Assembly: GCF_002887595.1 (NCBI RefSeq)
Contig: NZ_PEBU01000012.1
Span: 124,001-188,000, forward strand
Length of the DNA: 64,000 bases
Origin: Bowmanella denitrificans
GTDB taxonomy: Bacteria; Pseudomonadota; Gammaproteobacteria; Enterobacterales; Alteromonadaceae
Direction: 5' to 3'
Below are positions 1 to 6,569 of the stretch, piece by piece (the stretch's first letter is position 1; every line of letters starts with the position of its first letter). The notes under the pieces were generated by a model. The model did not search any database and was not told where the DNA came from. It saw only the letters and a list, made by a program, of their open reading frames with translations. A program made the translations under genes and the position numbers.

Positions 1-99
1 CTGAATATTGGTCATGCCATTGTCGGCCGCGCGGTGTTTGACGGCTTACCTAAAGCGGTGGCAGACATGAAGCGCCTGATGCTGGAAGCCAGACTGTAA
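1..99 (+). CDS. pdxJ: Pyridoxine 5'-phosphate synthase, C-terminal end (partial)
   Basis: The frame is open from base 1 and ends in TAA at 97-99, giving the last 32 residues. The tail [16 protein letters not shown] matches the end of PdxJ, the TIM-barrel enzyme that condenses 1-deoxyxylulose 5-phosphate with 3-amino-2-oxopropyl phosphate in vitamin B6 synthesis. The gene is cut by the left window edge. acpS follows downstream, the usual pdxJ-acpS order in gammaproteobacteria, which supports the call. Confidence 0.93.
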
Positions 100-104
100 A
101 GATA

Positions 105-260
105 ATTACCACAGAGACCCGGAGAACACAGAGGTGACCACAATAAAGATAGATTCGCCGCTTAGGCCAGTTGAATTGCTGGCGACTACTGACTGGTCGG
201 GCGATAGTGCCGGGAATATACCTACTCTGAATACTCTGTGCCTTGTGTGTCTCTATGGTG
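105..260. repeat. Imperfect inverted repeat of the CAGAGAC/CACAGAG type between pdxJ and acpS
   Basis: The left arm at about 109-133 (starts CCACAGAGAC, ends CACAGAG) is matched in reverse complement by 233-257. I count about 18 of 25 positions paired, with the two ends of the arm best conserved. The arms enclose about 100 bp without a gene. The layout suggests a small non-autonomous palindromic element or REP-like sequence. A related element lies at 39889-39968. Confidence 0.55.
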
Positions 261-270
261 ACGTAACGAT

Positions 271-648
271 ATGGCGATAATTGGTCTAGGCACAGACATA
301 GTGGAAATTGCCCGTTTTCAGGAGCCGCTGGAAAAGTCCCGTCGTTTGGCCCAAAGGGTGCTGAGCGACGAAGAATTACTGGAATTTGATCAGCATAATT
401 TCCCGGCCCGTTTTCTGGCCAAGCGTTTTGCTGCCAAAGAAGCCATGGTTAAAGCCATTGGTAATGGCATTGGCAATGGCGTTAGTTTCCGCCAGATGGA
501 AGTGCGTCACCTTGCCAGTGGTGCCCCGTATCTACATATTAGTGGCTATTTGCAGGAGTTATGTGTGAGCAGGGGAGTCATGTCGATCCACCTTAGTATT
601 GCCGATGAACAGCACTATGCAGTCGCCACGGTAATATTGGAGAGCTGA
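271..648 (+). CDS. acpS: Holo-[acyl-carrier-protein] synthase
   Basis: This 125-residue protein has the usual AcpS length. It transfers 4'-phosphopantetheine from CoA to the serine of apo-ACP, activating fatty acid synthesis in the cytoplasm. The N-terminal GLGTDIVEI motif holds the metal-binding Asp, and RFAAKEAMVKAIG holds the conserved Glu and Lys. The ATG at 271 is preceded only by a weak purine stretch. The gene lies between pdxJ and rlmD, six bases ahead of the latter, so co-transcription with rlmD is likely. Confidence 0.95.
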   Translation: MAIIGLGTDIVEIARFQEPLEKSRRLAQRVLSDEELLEFDQHNFPARFLAKRFAAKEAMVKAIGNGIGNGVSFRQMEVRHLASGAPYLHISGYLQELCVSRGVMSIHLSIADEQHYAVATVILES

Positions 649-654
649 ACAAGC

Positions 655-2004
655 ATGGTACAGATTTACAAAGCGGCCAAAGGCCGCAAGCCTGGACCGG
701 TCAGTCTAGCCAAACAGCTTCTGACTATTGATGAGCTGGATCATGCTGGTATGGGGGTATGTCGCAGCCATCAGCCGGTGGTTTTTGTGGAAGGCGCATT
801 ACCTGGTGAACAGGTAGAAACGCGCATCATCCAAAAAAAATCCCGCCACTGGCAGGGGCAGGCGGTGAAAGTATTGCAATCCAGTCCCGAGCGGATCGAG
901 GCATTTTGCCCGCATATTAACCAATGTGGTGGCTGTCAGAATCAGCATATTGGTCAGACTGACCTGCTTGCACATAAGCAACAGGCGGTGGCGCAGTTGC
1001 TAAGTCGCCAGTCAGGGGTATCTGCACTGCCCTGGCAATCCCCTTTACAAGGGGACGATCGTCACTACAGAAGAAAGGCCAGACTGGCTGTCGATGCACA
1101 AGGCAAAGGCGGGCCAAGTATCGGTTTTCGTGCTAAAGGTAGCGAAAAGGTAGTGAACATCCGGCAATGCGCTATTCTAACTCCGGCATTGCAGTCGGTG
1201 CTCACGCCGCTGCTACAAGCTGTGAAGGCGTTAAAGGGCGTTAGAGCCATCGGACATATTAGTTTGCTGGATGCCGACAATCAGCTTCAGGTATGTTTGC
1301 GAGTTACCCGGGATTTACCGGCAGCCGATCTGGCGCAGTTGCGAATTCTGGCAGAGAAGTGCAAAGTTTCCCTGCTATTGGAAACAGCACCGGAACGCTT
1401 TGAATACCTTTCGGGTGAAAGGTTGAGTGCCAGTTATCAGCCTGCCACGGGACTGAACCTGACAATCGGCCCCAATGACTTTATTCAGGTCAATAGTGCC
1501 ATCAACCAGGCAATGGTGGCACAGGCTTTGGAATGGCTCGACATAGCACCAGGTGAACAGATATTGGATTTGTTTTGTGGTGTGGGTAACTTCAGCCTGC
1601 CGCTGGCCAAAGCTGGCACCAAGGTCGTCGGCATTGAAGGTGTTCAGGCCATGGTAACGCGTGCCAGGGACAATGCGCAGAATAACGGACTGGCGGTGGA
1701 TTTTCGCTGTATGGATCTCAGTGACAGTCAGGCATTACTTAGTTTACCGGTCAAGATGGATAAGGTGCTGCTTGATCCGGCCAGAGCTGGCGCCCTTGAG
1801 CTTATGCCTGTGCTGCACAAACTAAAACCCGGGGCGATTTGTTATGTGTCCTGCAATCCGGCAACCTTCGCCCGCGACATCGCCGTACTGGCCGAAAAAG
1901 GCTGGCGCATAGATAAGATCAATCTGATGGATATGTTTCCCAATACCGTTCATACCGAGTTGATGGCGCTACTAAAACCTTCCGGGGCAGCGCGCAAAGC
2001 ATAA
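655..2004 (+). CDS. rlmD: 23S rRNA (uracil-1939-C5)-methyltransferase
   Basis: The protein has 449 residues. It shows an N-terminal TRAM domain (about 15-75), a 4Fe-4S site with Cys85, Cys91 and Cys94 plus a later Cys in RQCAIL, an SAM-binding segment LDLFCGVGNFS near 305, and the catalytic-cysteine motif SCNPATFARD near 400. These define the RumA/RlmD branch of uracil methyltransferases, which modify U1939 of 23S rRNA. A GGAGAG at 639-644 sits ten bases before the ATG. rlmD followed by relA is a conserved gammaproteobacterial order. Confidence 0.95.
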   Translation: MVQIYKAAKGRKPGPVSLAKQLLTIDELDHAGMGVCRSHQPVVFVEGALPGEQVETRIIQKKSRHWQGQAVKVLQSSPERIEAFCPHINQCGGCQNQHIGQTDLLAHKQQAVAQLLSRQSGVSALPWQSPLQGDDRHYRRKARLAVDAQGKGGPSIGFRAKGSEKVVNIRQCAILTPALQSVLTPLLQAVKALKGVRAIGHISLLDADNQLQVCLRVTRDLPAADLAQLRILAEKCKVSLLLETAPERFEYLSGERLSASYQPATGLNLTIGPNDFIQVNSAINQAMVAQALEWLDIAPGEQILDLFCGVGNFSLPLAKAGTKVVGIEGVQAMVTRARDNAQNNGLAVDFRCMDLSDSQALLSLPVKMDKVLLDPARAGALELMPVLHKLKPGAICYVSCNPATFARDIAVLAEKGWRIDKINLMDMFPNTVHTELMALLKPSGAARKA

Positions 2005-2063
2005 GGCGTTTGATAGTGTTCGACCTGATAAAGCTTGAACTCCCGACCCCGACAGGATGAAAT

Positions 2064-2164
2064 GGCAACTGGCAACTGGCAACTGGCAACTGGCAACTGG
2101 CAACTGGCAACTGGCAACTGGCAACTGGCAACTGGCAACTGACAACTGACAACTGACAACTGAC
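2064..2164 (+). repeat. 14-unit heptanucleotide tandem repeat abutting the relA start
   Basis: Eleven consecutive GGCAACT units (2064-2140) are followed by three GACAACT units (2141-2161) and a partial GAC, perfectly in register. Only three bases separate the array from the relA ATG at 2168. The array therefore occupies the leader and the place where a ribosome-binding site should be, and no AGGAG-like sequence is present. Copy number of such 7-bp arrays can change by slippage. In the antisense direction it would encode a meaningless repeat peptide. Confidence 0.97.
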
Positions 2165-2167
2165 ATT

Positions 2168-4315
2168 ATGGTTTCCATACGTAAGGTACATAAGCAAACT
2201 CTGGCCTTCTCCCAGTGGCTGGCTTCATTGCATCTGCCGGCAGACACCGCCGCCAGACTAGCTGCGCTTCAGGAACGCTTTGACTGTCCGCTGATGGGAC
2301 GGGAAATGGTGGAAATCCTGCATGAACTGCACATGGATGACGATACCCTACAAGCGGCCTTAATGTTGCCGTTGATTGAACAGCAGCAGTGGCAGGAAGA
2401 ACTCATTGCTGAGCGGCTGGGTAACGACATGCTGGGGTTAGTGCAGGGGGTGAGACGCATGGAAGCCATTCGCACCTTACACAACAATAAACAGGCCCGT
2501 ACCGACGAAGCACAGATAGACAATTTACGTCGTATGTTACTGGCGATGGTGGAAGATGTGCGGGCGGTCGTGATCAAACTGGCCGAACGTATCTGTACCC
2601 TGCGCGACGTTAAAAACGCAGACGAAGAAACCCGGGTACTGGTGGCGCGGGAGTGCGCCAGCATTTATGCGCCTTTGGCTAACCGTTTAGGCATTGGTCA
2701 GCTGAAATGGGAACTGGAAGATCTGTCGTTTCGTTATCTGCACCCGGAAACCTACAAGCAGATAGCAGGATTACTGGATGAGAAGCGTGAAGATCGCGAG
2801 CAATATATCAGCGATTTTGTCAGTAATTTGCAACAACAGTTGGTTGAACAGCAAATTCGCGCCGAAGTGTATGGCAGGCCGAAGCATATCTACAGCATCT
2901 GGAAAAAGATGCAGAAAAAACACCTGGGTTTTGAACAACTGTATGACATCCGTGCGGTGCGTATTATTGCCGAGCGTTTGCAGGATTGCTACGGCGCGCT
3001 GGGGATTGTGCACGCCAACTGGAAGCATATTCCACGCGAGTTCGATGATTATATCGCCACCCCTAAGCCTAACGGCTATCAGTCTATTCATACTGTGGTG
3101 GTCGGGCCACAGGGTAAGGCGGTAGAGATCCAGATCCGTACCCAGCAAATGCATCAGGACGCAGAACTGGGGGTTGCCGCCCACTGGAAGTATAAGGAAG
3201 GTGCGCCGGGTGGACGTAGTGGTTACGAAGAAAAAATCAACTGGTTGCGCAAGATACTGCAGTGGCAGGAAGAGATGGCCGAGTCCGGCGATCTGGTGGA
3301 AGAGCTGCGCAGCCAGGTATTTGACGACAGGGTCTATGTCTTCACTCCCAAGGGCGATGTGGTCGACCTGCCTCTGGGGTCAACGCCACTGGACTTTGCT
3401 TACTATATTCACTCCAATGTCGGCCACCGCTGTATTGGTGCCAAAGTGTTTGGCCGTATTGTGCCCTTTACCTATCAGTTACAAACCGGTGATCAGGTAG
3501 AAATTCTCACCGGTAAACAGCCCAATCCCAGCCGCGACTGGATGAATCCGCATTTGGGCTATGTGCACTCGTCAAGGGCGCGGGCCAAAATCCATACCTG
3601 GTTCAAAAAACTGGACCGGGATAAAAATCTGCAGGCCGGTAAAGAAACGCTGGAGAAAGAACTGCAGCGTATTAATTTACCTGTCAAAGAAGCGGCTTTG
3701 GCGTGCGAGAAGTTTAATTTTGCCCATCTGGACGACTTGTATGTGGCCATCGGCGGTGGTGATGTGCGGTTGTACCAGGTGGTTAATTTTCTGCAGCAAC
3801 GTCATGCACCGCCCGCGCCGCTGGATCTGCGCCTGAAGAAAAAGCCACATCCTGCTCAGGGTAAAGATGCGGTGGTAGTGGAAGGGGTGGGCAATCTGAT
3901 GACCCAACTGGCAGGATGCTGCCAGCCGTTACCGGGGGATCCGATTCAGGGCTTTATTACTCAGGGCCGCGGTGTCAGCGTGCATCGGGAGGATTGTGAA
4001 CAACTCGCCCATTTGATGCAGGAACATCCCGAACGCAGTATTGAAGTGAACTGGGCAGGTGAGCGCAGCGGTGCGTTTGAGTCCAATGTGGAAATCCTCT
4101 GTGCCGATCGTGACGGTATTTTACGCGATATCACCACGATTCTGGCCAACGAGAAAATTGGTTTATTGGGGGTGAACAGCCTGAGTAACGCCAAAGAACA
4201 CACCGCCAGAATCAATCTGAAGTTGGAAGTGAAAGACTTAAACAGCCTGGCTAAAATCATTGCCAAGCTTAAGTTGGTTAATGGTGTGGCTGAGGTGCGT
4301 CGCTCTGAACTTTGA
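2168..4315 (+). CDS. relA: GTP pyrophosphokinase RelA, (p)ppGpp synthetase I
   Basis: The 715-residue protein makes (p)ppGpp from ATP and GTP/GDP on ribosomes with uncharged tRNA. From the N-terminus it shows a degenerate HD region (the hydrolase His-Asp pair is absent, with LMLPLIEQQ there), the synthetase domain with YGRPKHIYSIW and YDIRAVRI, a TGS domain starting VYVFTPKGDVVDLP, and a C-terminal ACT domain. The start matches the MVAVR-type N-terminus of RelA proteins. Its leader is a heptamer array with no visible Shine-Dalgarno, which is unusual for such a dosage-sensitive gene. mazG lies downstream, as in relatives. Confidence 0.96.
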   Translation: MVSIRKVHKQTLAFSQWLASLHLPADTAARLAALQERFDCPLMGREMVEILHELHMDDDTLQAALMLPLIEQQQWQEELIAERLGNDMLGLVQGVRRMEAIRTLHNNKQARTDEAQIDNLRRMLLAMVEDVRAVVIKLAERICTLRDVKNADEETRVLVARECASIYAPLANRLGIGQLKWELEDLSFRYLHPETYKQIAGLLDEKREDREQYISDFVSNLQQQLVEQQIRAEVYGRPKHIYSIWKKMQKKHLGFEQLYDIRAVRIIAERLQDCYGALGIVHANWKHIPREFDDYIATPKPNGYQSIHTVVVGPQGKAVEIQIRTQQMHQDAELGVAAHWKYKEGAPGGRSGYEEKINWLRKILQWQEEMAESGDLVEELRSQVFDDRVYVFTPKGDVVDLPLGSTPLDFAYYIHSNVGHRCIGAKVFGRIVPFTYQLQTGDQVEILTGKQPNPSRDWMNPHLGYVHSSRARAKIHTWFKKLDRDKNLQAGKETLEKELQRINLPVKEAALACEKFNFAHLDDLYVAIGGGDVRLYQVVNFLQQRHAPPAPLDLRLKKKPHPAQGKDAVVVEGVGNLMTQLAGCCQPLPGDPIQGFITQGRGVSVHREDCEQLAHLMQEHPERSIEVNWAGERSGAFESNVEILCADRDGILRDITTILANEKIGLLGVNSLSNAKEHTARINLKLEVKDLNSLAKIIAKLKLVNGVAEVRRSEL

Positions 4316-4346
4316 GCTGTTGGTTAGCCGTCGTCAGAGCTTTTAT

Positions 4347-4365
4347 GTCGGAATTCAATTCCGAC
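4347..4365. repeat. Short palindrome GTCGGAATT-C-AATTCCGAC between relA and mazG
   Basis: Two perfect 9-base arms (4347-4355 and 4357-4365) are separated by one base. No T-run follows on either strand, so an intrinsic terminator is not supported. It may be a dispersed palindromic repeat unit, or a protein-binding or RNA-processing site. Confidence 0.6.
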
Positions 4366-4405
4366 CTACTGTGGGGGCGCACGTTAGAATGATAAGGAAC
4401 GGGTT

Positions 4406-5221
4406 TTGACAATCATACATGATCAGAATTATCCCAACCTCGATAAGCTCCTGTGGGTAATGGACAAACTGCGCGACCCGGATGATGGCTGCCCCTGGGA
4501 TCTGAAGCAAAGTTTTGCCAGCATTGTGCCCTTTACTATCGAAGAAGCCTATGAAGTGGCCGATGCCATCGAACATGGTGAACCTGCAGACATTCGGGAG
4601 GAACTCGGCGATTTGCTGTTCCAGGTGGTGTTTTATGCCCGTCTGGGTAAAGAGCAAGCGCTGTTTGATTTTGAAGATATTGCCGGGCAAATGGCAGAGA
4701 AGTTGATTCGTCGCCACCCTCATGTGTTTGCCCAGGCAGAGTTTGATGAGACAGAGGTAAAAGCCAACTGGGAAGCCGAAAAGGCCAAGGAGCGCGCCGA
4801 TAAGGCGGGTGGCAAGGTGATGCTGCTGGACAATATTCCGCAGGCATTACCGGCCTTAACCCGCGCGGCAAAAATACAGAAGCGTTGTGCCAATGTGGGT
4901 TTTGACTGGCCGGACACCGATGGCGTGTTTGCCAAAATTCAGGAAGAAATCCTTGAAGTGCAGGAAGAATTAAACCGGCCGCACGTCAATCAGCAAGCCC
5001 TGGAAGAGGAGTTAGGCGACCTGTTGTTCGCCACTGTGAATTTAGTCCGTAAGCTGAAGAAAGACCCGGAAACCCTGTTAAGAAAAGCCAATCACAAGTT
5101 TGAGCAACGTTTTCGCCAGGTGGAACAGCGTTTGACTGAGCAACATATCCCTCTTGAACAAGCCAGCCTGGAGCAGATGGAAGAACAGTGGCTTAAAGTC
5201 AAGAATCTGAAGAGAAATTGA
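4406..5221 (+). CDS. mazG: Nucleoside triphosphate pyrophosphohydrolase MazG
   Basis: The 271-residue protein hydrolyses (d)NTPs to NMP and pyrophosphate and is linked to nutritional-stress survival and lowering of (p)ppGpp. Two tandem MazG domains are visible: GCPWDLKQ with EEAYEVADAIE and ELGDLLFQVVF in the first, and EEILEVQEEL with EELGDLLFATVNL in the second. The start is TTG at 4406 with AAGGA at 4394-4398, seven bases upstream. The relA-mazG order is conserved, but pyrG and eno, which often follow, are not found here. Confidence 0.94.
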   Translation: MTIIHDQNYPNLDKLLWVMDKLRDPDDGCPWDLKQSFASIVPFTIEEAYEVADAIEHGEPADIREELGDLLFQVVFYARLGKEQALFDFEDIAGQMAEKLIRRHPHVFAQAEFDETEVKANWEAEKAKERADKAGGKVMLLDNIPQALPALTRAAKIQKRCANVGFDWPDTDGVFAKIQEEILEVQEELNRPHVNQQALEEELGDLLFATVNLVRKLKKDPETLLRKANHKFEQRFRQVEQRLTEQHIPLEQASLEQMEEQWLKVKNLKRN

Positions 5222-5318
5222 GAAATATCAATGTCATTATTGTGCTCTGGCGCTAAGCTGGTTAGACAAACAGCTGCTTAGTCTGCTGGATTGCCAGAAG
5301 TGATAAGAGACAGTAAGC

Positions 5319-6569
5319 ATGGCCAAACTGAAAATTCACCCGGACAGCCTGCGATTGGGCATGTATGTGAAGTTGCCCTCCGGATGGATGAAGCATCCCT
5401 TTCTTTTCAATAGCTTTAAATTGAGCAGCCATGAGCAGATTAGGGTCATTCGTGCCTTAAAGTTACCTTATATCCTGATTGATGCGGACAAAAGTGACGT
5501 ACAACCACAGGAAGAGGTGCAGTTAGCCCCTGAGCCAGTATTGGATGAGGATACACAGCAGTTGCGCGAACAAATGGAGCAGGATAAGCACCAGCGCATA
5601 GAACAGCTGAAGCAGTTTCGTCGCAGTTTACAGAAAACAGAGAAGAACTTTCAGCGCAGTTTAGTGCAGGTACGTAATCTGATGACTAAGGTGGGTAGCA
5701 GGCCCTTGCAGGCAGTAGAAGAAGCACAGCAACTCATCAGCGACATGGCCGATATCATTCTGGGCGAAGAAAATGTTGCCCTGCATCTGATGAACCCGGA
5801 TAAACAGGGAGATAATCTGTATTATCACTCCCTCAATGTGGCAGTACTGGCAATGATGCTGGCCAGACAAGGACAGCTTAGTCGGGAACAAGGGCAGAAA
5901 CTTGGACTGGCGGCTTTATTTCATGATGTAGGTAAGCTCAAAATCCCCAGTCAGGTGTTAAGAAAAACCGACGCGCTGAGCAAGCCGGAAGAGAATCTGC
6001 TGAAAATGCACTGTCAGTACGGGGTGGATTTATTGAGCCATTCTGACGCCTTTCCGGGTGATATATTGCCGGTAATATTGCAACACCATGAACATATCGA
6101 TGGCAGTGGTTATCCTCGCGGACTGTCAGGAAAAGCCATTGATCCACTTGCACAGATTCTGATGCTGGTAAATGAATACGACAACCTTTGTCATCCTAGG
6201 GATCCGGCCAAGGCTAAGATTCCCTATCAGGCGCTGTCGTTTCTGTTCAAGAATATGAAAGCCAAGTTGCCGGATAAAGAAACCAAAATGTTGGTTAAGC
6301 TGCTCGGTGTATACCCGCCCGGCACTGTGGTGATGCTGTCTGACAATAGGGTTGGCATGGTCATTTCGGTGAATACCAGTGATCTGCTTAATCCTTCCTT
6401 GCTGATGTATGATGCTTCAGTACCCAGCACTGAAGCGCCGATGATCAGTTTAAAAGAACATGACCTGAGTATTCTTAAAGTCATTAAACCCTCGCAACTG
6501 CCACCACCTATTTTCGAGTATCTTAATCCCCGGGCACGCATCAGCTACTTTGTCGATAAAGCCGGCTAG
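5319..6569 (+). CDS. HD-GYP domain cyclic-di-GMP phosphodiesterase with DUF3391
   Basis: This 416-residue cytoplasmic protein has an N-terminal DUF3391 region (about 1-150, including a Gln/Glu-rich helix at 75-115) followed by an HD-GYP domain. His170, the HDVGK motif at 202-206 and HHEHIDGSGYP at 256-266 are all present, so the metal site and GYP signature look intact. HD-GYP enzymes hydrolyse c-di-GMP to pGpG or GMP, affecting motility and biofilm. The gene appears monocistronic and ends at a terminator hairpin. Its biological target cannot be read from the context. Confidence 0.9.
   Translation: MAKLKIHPDSLRLGMYVKLPSGWMKHPFLFNSFKLSSHEQIRVIRALKLPYILIDADKSDVQPQEEVQLAPEPVLDEDTQQLREQMEQDKHQRIEQLKQFRRSLQKTEKNFQRSLVQVRNLMTKVGSRPLQAVEEAQQLISDMADIILGEENVALHLMNPDKQGDNLYYHSLNVAVLAMMLARQGQLSREQGQKLGLAALFHDVGKLKIPSQVLRKTDALSKPEENLLKMHCQYGVDLLSHSDAFPGDILPVILQHHEHIDGSGYPRGLSGKAIDPLAQILMLVNEYDNLCHPRDPAKAKIPYQALSFLFKNMKAKLPDKETKMLVKLLGVYPPGTVVMLSDNRVGMVISVNTSDLLNPSLLMYDASVPSTEAPMISLKEHDLSILKVIKPSQLPPPIFEYLNPRARISYFVDKAG

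Follow-up and report, generated by a model that had tools for sequence, protein, structure and literature searches.

A heptamer array before relA of Bowmanella denitrificans is a member of a patchy cross-phylum repeat family with strand-polar gene adjacency

Introduction

In a 64,000 bp stretch of the Bowmanella denitrificans genome (contig NZ_PEBU01000012.1, positions 124,001 to 188,000, referred to as the window), the sequence immediately upstream of relA is a tandem array of 7 bp units with no visible Shine-Dalgarno sequence. The locus raises the question of whether such an array is a device for setting the level of RelA, as in an original prediction that slippage changes in unit number would alter leader length, mRNA structure or promoter distance and could thereby vary ppGpp capacity, or is an instance of a wider class of repeats. 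The array turns out to be one of at least 15 in this genome and to belong to a family that spans phyla, is patchy in distribution and has no relA speciality; its members lie against neighboring reading frames predominantly with one edge.

Results

The array and the start codon that it adjoins

Direct reading of the forward strand gives 14 perfect heptamers at window positions 2064–2161, composed of 11 GGCAACT units (2064–2140) followed by three GACAACT units (2141–2161), in agreement with the original prediction. Six bases, GACATT (2162–2167), separate the last full unit from the relA ATG at 2168 and are similar to the gagatt and gagatc preceding the ATG in two congeners. The array had been described as running to three bases before the ATG, which holds if GACA is counted as a partial unit continuing the repeat, although the last full unit ends 6 bases before the start. 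The relA array is not a chance arrangement. TRF reports a period of 7, 14.3 copies and 98% matches with a score of 179, the next-best score being 63 (nine window rows at a score threshold of 40), and period-7 match runs reach 72 in the array, 7 in the rest of the window and no more than 10 in 30 first-order Markov resamples. The GACAACT units with their flanks create TGA codons at 2140, 2147, 2154 and 2161, a stop in all frames, and an N-terminal extension of RelA read through the array is thus ruled out.

The relA gene (2168–4315, forward) codes for a 715 aa GTP diphosphokinase and is transcribed in the same direction as its upstream neighbor rlmD (655–2004, forward) and as acpS (271–648) and mazG (from 4406). 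Heptamers fill 98 of the 163 bases in the rlmD–relA gap. No known RNA family was found in window 1–6000 and no tRNA by a tRNA scan, and BLAST of relA against plasmids gave no match. A palindrome like GTCGGAATTCAATTCCGAC lies 3' of relA at about 4346–4366 in the window, and GTCGGAATTCAATTCCGAC-like palindromes are also seen directly to the left of several CAACTGC elements elsewhere in the genome (flanks L074–L077 and L080).

The product is RelA (NF008124 match of 1038.6 bits, cut-off 728) and has 93%, 92%, 88%, and 82% identity to the proteins of the congeners G001, G002, G004, and G003, respectively. The start at 2168 is right because the N-terminus, MVSIRKVHKQ, is identical in this genome and all four congeners, and the possibility of a start further downstream, raised with the original prediction, does not hold. 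For the 24 bases that precede the start codon, the duplex energy with the anti-Shine-Dalgarno 9-mer, for which we assumed the sequence, is +0.7 kcal/mol. No other pairing is predicted to be as weak among the 47 ORFs in the window that reach 200 aa; their starts were set at the first ATG and may in some cases be wrong. With a conserved start and no Shine-Dalgarno sequence, the array does stand in place of the ribosome-binding site, as had been proposed. The corresponding energies for relA of the congeners are −2.7 (G001), −2.7 (G002), −10.2 (G004), and −4.1 kcal/mol (G003). A weak site does not by itself demonstrate that the array has an effect, since starts lacking a full array can pair about as poorly: G003 has +1.0 kcal/mol at its prepilin peptidase start, equally weak, and G004 has +0.1 at GSP_synth, nearly as weak.

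The array is specific to this lineage

None of the four congeners has an array before relA, and a CAACTGN tract of two or more units is absent there from all 22 relatives with a readable leader (39 relatives were surveyed, with seven rows starting inside the gene and ten without the locus). A conserved relA control element is ruled out by these absences. The relA leaders of G001 and G002 read ATGG-ctgataactgagatc-ATGG and ATGG-ttgacgactgagatt-ATGG, and resemble the array region of the window at both its ends (ATGG ... GACATT-ATGG).

Besides the relA array, the genome has only two GRCAACT arrays of three or more units, one ahead of a gene for a type IV prepilin peptidase and one ahead of a GSP_synth gene. 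All three point to starts and none to stops, and in the orthologous leaders of the congeners the full array is absent at the prepilin peptidase gene (four of four) and at GSP_synth (three of three, the fourth congener having no GSP_synth match). A 14-mer resembling two units (at least 11 of 14 positions matching) is found in four of the 11 congener leaders of relA, prepilin peptidase and GSP_synth, compared with seven of 486 ORF leaders on contig C1 (Fisher p 4e-5), where the congeners are mutually related and the counts are therefore not independent events; the other strand of the contig C1 leaders has five in 486. As far as sequence resemblance goes, this excess speaks for short heptad seeds already in place, grown here or decayed elsewhere.

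A sister CAACTGC array differs in length at one orthologous place, with seven units in G002 and 17 in G001, behind a coding sequence that we take to be ffh. At the orthologous place in the window's genome there is no CAACTGC array within 420 bases, and the G003 and G004 loci there have no CAACTGN tract of two or more units. By analogy with the 7 versus 17 units of this sister array, copy-number change of the relA array is plausible.

A dispersed and patchy heptamer family

Read in another phase, the relA units are CAACTGG and CAACTGA, and the genome carries at least 15 CAACTGN arrays of three or more units, a count drawn from 100 of 122 matches together with all 92 matches of five or more units. 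Among those listed, 12 are of the CAACTGC type and five are at contig ends. Ten CAACTGC arrays with a left flank share a common leader of reverse heptads and a TTGACAG core (TTTACAG in one). A dispersed element in G418, a 75% complete genome from another family, is built similarly, with reverse heptads TCAGTNA, a TTGACAG core (TTTACAG in one) and a right arm of CAACTGA units. The order of parts is the same in the two families (G418, loci L309, L310, L315–L317, L320 and L322; G000, loci L072–L080 and L084), with a left arm of reverse heptads, TCAGTNA or CAGTNAT-like, and a right arm of forward CAACTGA or CAACTGC. One G418 copy folded as RNA is predicted to form a strong hairpin (−63.7 kcal/mol, compared with −38.2 for shuffles, sd 3.7; z −6.8), and one CAACTGC element of the window's genome with the same part order has no excess stability (z −0.1). 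Comparison by eye with the element alignment found neither a reverse-heptad arm nor a TTGACAG-like core at 2005–2063 before the relA array, and the compound element is ruled out as its source.

GRCAACT arrays of four or more units are present in eight of 395 genomes of the family, and GAYAACT arrays of that length in two of 369 genomes drawn from the class, this genome included in both. A scan of one genome per species in 84,980 species (the tool's figure) gave at least 119 GRCAACT stretches, 80 of them as loci that by record title are from Cyanobacteria, Acidobacteria, Planctomycetes, Omnitrophota, Bacteroidota, Proteobacteria, and others. Nineteen of 20 scanned downstream ORFs of 150 or more aa (26 such ORFs are listed) contain a Pfam family, and genes behind arrays include those for ribosomal protein S5, AIR carboxylase, two acyl transferases, and shikimate dehydrogenase. 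A GACAACT array precedes a ribosomal protein S5-type gene in two cyanobacterial genera, assigned by Pfam match at L158 and by similar first residues at L188, and the array may be old at this site.

Other short-period repeats were noted along the way. In G004 a CAACTGA array has a second heptamer array, of GTGAGGA-like units, a short distance to its left (locus L087, left of 2977), and contig C1 of the genome contains GTAGCTC repeated 4.9 times at 337475–337508 and CGCAGCC repeated 11.1 times at 745396–745473, both with period 7, as well as CGGTTGAGT repeated 5.2 times with period 9 at 688557–688603.

One edge of the arrays predominantly adjoins reading frame boundaries

In the loci analyzed, ORF boundaries adjoin the 3' edge of the arrays, as read on the CAACTGN strand, much more frequently than the 5' edge, at starts and, less sharply, at convergent stops. 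We scored clusters in which an ORF of 100 or more aa has a boundary within 30 nt (24 nt of overlap allowed) of the 3' edge only or the 5' edge only; these ORFs are not annotated genes, and related genomes contribute loci that are not independent of one another. For the 86 clusters of three or more units in the 80 listed loci of named genomes (the named set), the boundary is at the 3' edge only in 34, at the 5' edge only in four, at both in 12, and at neither in 36 (p 6e-7). The corresponding 3' and 5' counts are 12 and one of 16 clusters in the family set, six and none of 15 for the genus CAACTGC arrays, and nine and none of 14 in G418. Many of the genus CAACTGC and G418 clusters are at contig ends with one flank missing, and the comparison was repeated requiring 350 nt on both sides, giving 30 versus three of 68 clusters in the named set (p 1.4e-6), 12 versus one of 16 in the family (p 0.003), four versus none of 10 for genus CAACTGC, and three versus none of three in G418.

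Starts and stops contribute unequally. In the 80 listed loci, an ATG start of an ORF of 100 or more aa lies within 30 nt in the forward direction at 30 of 86 clusters and in the backward direction at three (p 1.4e-6); with ORFs of 150 or more aa the numbers are 25 and one, and with GTG and TTG allowed 32 and nine. A raw tally of stops only gives 21 for the 3' edge and 13 for the 5' edge (p 0.23); with a narrower overlap it is 21 to eight (p 0.02). Counted per neighbor with called genes in the named set, convergent stops are within 30 nt of the 3' edge in 14 of 27 cases, compared with seven of 47 for co-directional stops at the 5' edge (p 0.001), and starts in 23 of 38 at the 3' edge compared with two of 18 at the 5' edge (p 5e-4). 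Overall polarity with called genes is weaker than in the ORF test in the named set (47 versus 18, p 4e-4), is 13 versus two in the family, and is not seen in the genus CAACTGC set (six versus four, p 0.75), the method being one that can lose divergent neighbors.

Start-codon-specific placement across phyla was the reading that we first favored, from the 30 versus three bias, and became less likely because the same 3' edge also meets stops: the family set has seven stops and five starts at this edge, and G418 has nine and two. Within the family a link to start codons is ruled out, as the arrays of other genera are mostly at the ends of convergent genes. A start-specific reading stays the main rival because stops alone give only 21 versus 13.

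Unit number and predicted expression of relA

Two of the routes by which unit number had been suggested to act on relA find no counterpart in the predictions. Start accessibility and local energy are predicted to be flat from 0 to 25 GGCAACT units (0.52–0.57 unpaired), which leads us to reject an RNA structure switch by copy number and leaves an effect through mRNA structure unsupported. The mean unpaired probability around the relA start is predicted to be 0.54 with the array, 0.38–0.41 with the array reversed, and 0.41–0.52 at the same site in the congener leaders. Relative to shuffles, neither the relA leader nor the array has excess RNA stability (z +2.8 and −0.5), and no DNA hairpin is predicted on the opposite strand of the array (z +2.9). 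A consensus scan found no sigma-70-like promoter in 1700–2500 and gives no support to an effect through promoter distance.

The array had also been placed outside the frame, which needs amending in that two upstream frames cross it and unit number moves their stops. A possible upstream ORF of 26 codons (2062–2142, forward, MATGNWQL...; an open frame only) ends 25 nt upstream of the relA ATG, and a second frame of 30 codons from the ATG at 2057 ends 18 nt upstream. When units are changed in silico, the stop of the 2062 frame shifts among the TGA codons and its gap to relA cycles through 11, 18 and 25 nt; every unit number modelled (6 to 16) led to a stop in the frame through the array. G001 and G002 (L013 and L014) have a four-codon frame (MADN and MVDD) ending 4 nt before the relA ATG, and in the remaining two congeners no short frame abuts the relA start, the nearest stops ending 15 and 26 nt upstream of it.

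Relation to known heptamer repeats

The short tandemly repeated repetitive (STRR) heptamers of cyanobacteria are dispersed heptamer tandem arrays with other units. Compared by description and by the presence of GRCAACT in cyanobacterial records, STRR and CAACTGN repeats are alike in being dispersed heptamer tandem arrays.

The closest description of the relA array is that of the TAACTGA direct repeats, of which it is a close sequence variant. The sections of MacGregor (2015, PMC4679880) that deal with these repeats report them from marine Beggiatoaceae, Cyanobacteria and Bacteroidetes, close to starts and poor in Shine-Dalgarno sequences. As described there, the likeness extends to the forward orientation, with the last full unit at relA 6 nt before a conserved ATG, and to the lack of a Shine-Dalgarno sequence between repeat and start, and the start-adjoining pattern in the 80 listed loci matches too (PMC4679880). 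The differences are that the relA units are CAACTGG and CAACTGA and not TAACTGA, that there are 14 of them compared with 2–6, and that this genome has three GRCAACT arrays of three or more units compared with 169 sets reported there, where only three CAACTGA doublets were counted in the BOGUAY genome (PMC4679880).

A second comparison is with the GGGAATC and GGGGA(C/T)T heptamers of Xanthomonas and Nostoc, which according to the relevant parts of Rehm et al. (2015, PMC4692102) are G-rich and form G-quadruplexes, a unit to which CAACTGN is unrelated. The GGGAATC repeats are described as nearer to the ORF neighboring their 5' side whatever its direction, at starts and stops, and their neighbors as including many hypothetical and metabolic genes and not mainly contingency genes (PMC4692102). 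The two kinds of repeat share an intergenic position and a strand-dependent nearness to one ORF that takes in both starts and stops, and the pattern agrees in form with CAACTGN polarity because what is the 5' edge on the G-rich strand becomes the 3' edge when the complementary strand is read (PMC4692102). In the open-licence literature we found no paper that links the two patterns or connects such polarity with leaders lacking a Shine-Dalgarno sequence and with relA, and literal searches there for the repeat strings gave no match.

Discussion

How the relA array came about is suggested by its family. We judge it about an even call that the array is a member of a dispersed, strand-polar CAACTGN satellite which grew by slippage, overwrote the leader, and is near-neutral for relA. 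Short heptad-like stretches of non-coding sequence would be the origin of the heptamer tracts, which replication slippage would then expand and shrink. The 3' edge on the CAACTGN strand would come up against the next ORF boundary, be it a start ahead or a convergent stop, and selection at the coding boundary would halt the advancing edge. Where a tract meets a gene the original leader would be lost, as at relA, where the tract probably took the leader's place in situ, and relA translation would start without a Shine-Dalgarno sequence from an A/C-rich leader of little structure. Slippage alone does not explain why one edge adjoins genes.

A possible but doubtful alternative is that the array is a translational control site, with its RNA bound by ribosomal protein S1, a cold-shock protein or a CsrA-like protein, within a set of genes having heptamer leaders and no Shine-Dalgarno sequence, as MacGregor proposed for the TAACTGA repeats (PMC4679880). 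This would fit the bias at starts (30 versus three of 86 clusters), which is sharper than that at stops (21 versus 13), the lack of a 4-base Shine-Dalgarno sequence in 28 of 31 array–start pairs among the 80 listed loci, and the presence of ribosomal protein S5, AIR carboxylase and two acyl transferases among the genes behind arrays; the same pattern is described for TAACTGA in the BOGUAY genome (PMC4679880). However, the same edge adjoins convergent stops where no start is served, as in the family (seven stops to five starts) and in G418 (nine to two), the array-linked genes have no common function, and the proposed binding partner is hypothetical.

We regard as unlikely the proposal that relA is a contingency locus, in which slippage alters the unit number, the unit number RelA level, and RelA level the ppGpp capacity from cell to cell. 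Fourteen perfect units should be long enough for slipping, and the 7 versus 17 units of the sister CAACTGC array in two species are in keeping with this. A precedent is provided by the 7-base repeats upstream of hmw1A and hmw2A in Haemophilus influenzae, which in the portions of the reports concerned with them number about 11–38 copies, vary, and reduce expression as copy number rises (PMC8262952, PMC2651432). The hmw and relA arrays share a 7-base unit and a position upstream of the gene. However, the hmw repeats lie between and over promoter boxes, 69–106 bp upstream, as those reports describe (PMC8262952, PMC2651432), whereas the relA array ends 6 bases before the ATG and no promoter was found in the consensus scan. 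Neither a promoter nor a structure change is predicted at relA, all four congeners do without the array, and the scanned genes behind arrays are largely metabolic or housekeeping, as described for neighbors of the GGGAATC repeats (PMC4692102).

Coupling to an upstream ORF, in which ribosomes would start at the ATG at 2062 (or 2057), read the array, stop at a TGA and restart at relA across a gap of 11, 18 or 25 nt set by unit number modulo 3, is very improbable: the open 26-codon frame, the in silico gap cycle, and the four-codon frames of two congeners are compatible with it, but the AGGA before the ATG at 2062 lies only 4 nt from it, and in the remaining two congeners no short frame runs up to the relA start. 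Just as improbable is a broader reading, that one strand-polar process in many phyla lays heptamers (NAACTGN, GGGAATC) against genes and that slippage steps RelA output through the three-state gap before relA; if true, a polar process would wipe out Shine-Dalgarno sequences and leave leaders with stops in every frame. A ppGpp switch operated by the relA array is a guess.

Returning to the strand-polar satellite, its wider meaning is that heptamers before start codons need not be a start-codon device, as the same edge also lies against the stops of convergent genes. A polarity of general occurrence would point to a so far unrecognized directional mode of growth in bacterial satellites. The arrays provide natural leaders without Shine-Dalgarno sequences on housekeeping genes of several phyla, of use for the study of non-canonical initiation, and the relA array offers a concrete case for whether slippage tunes the leader of an alarm gene.
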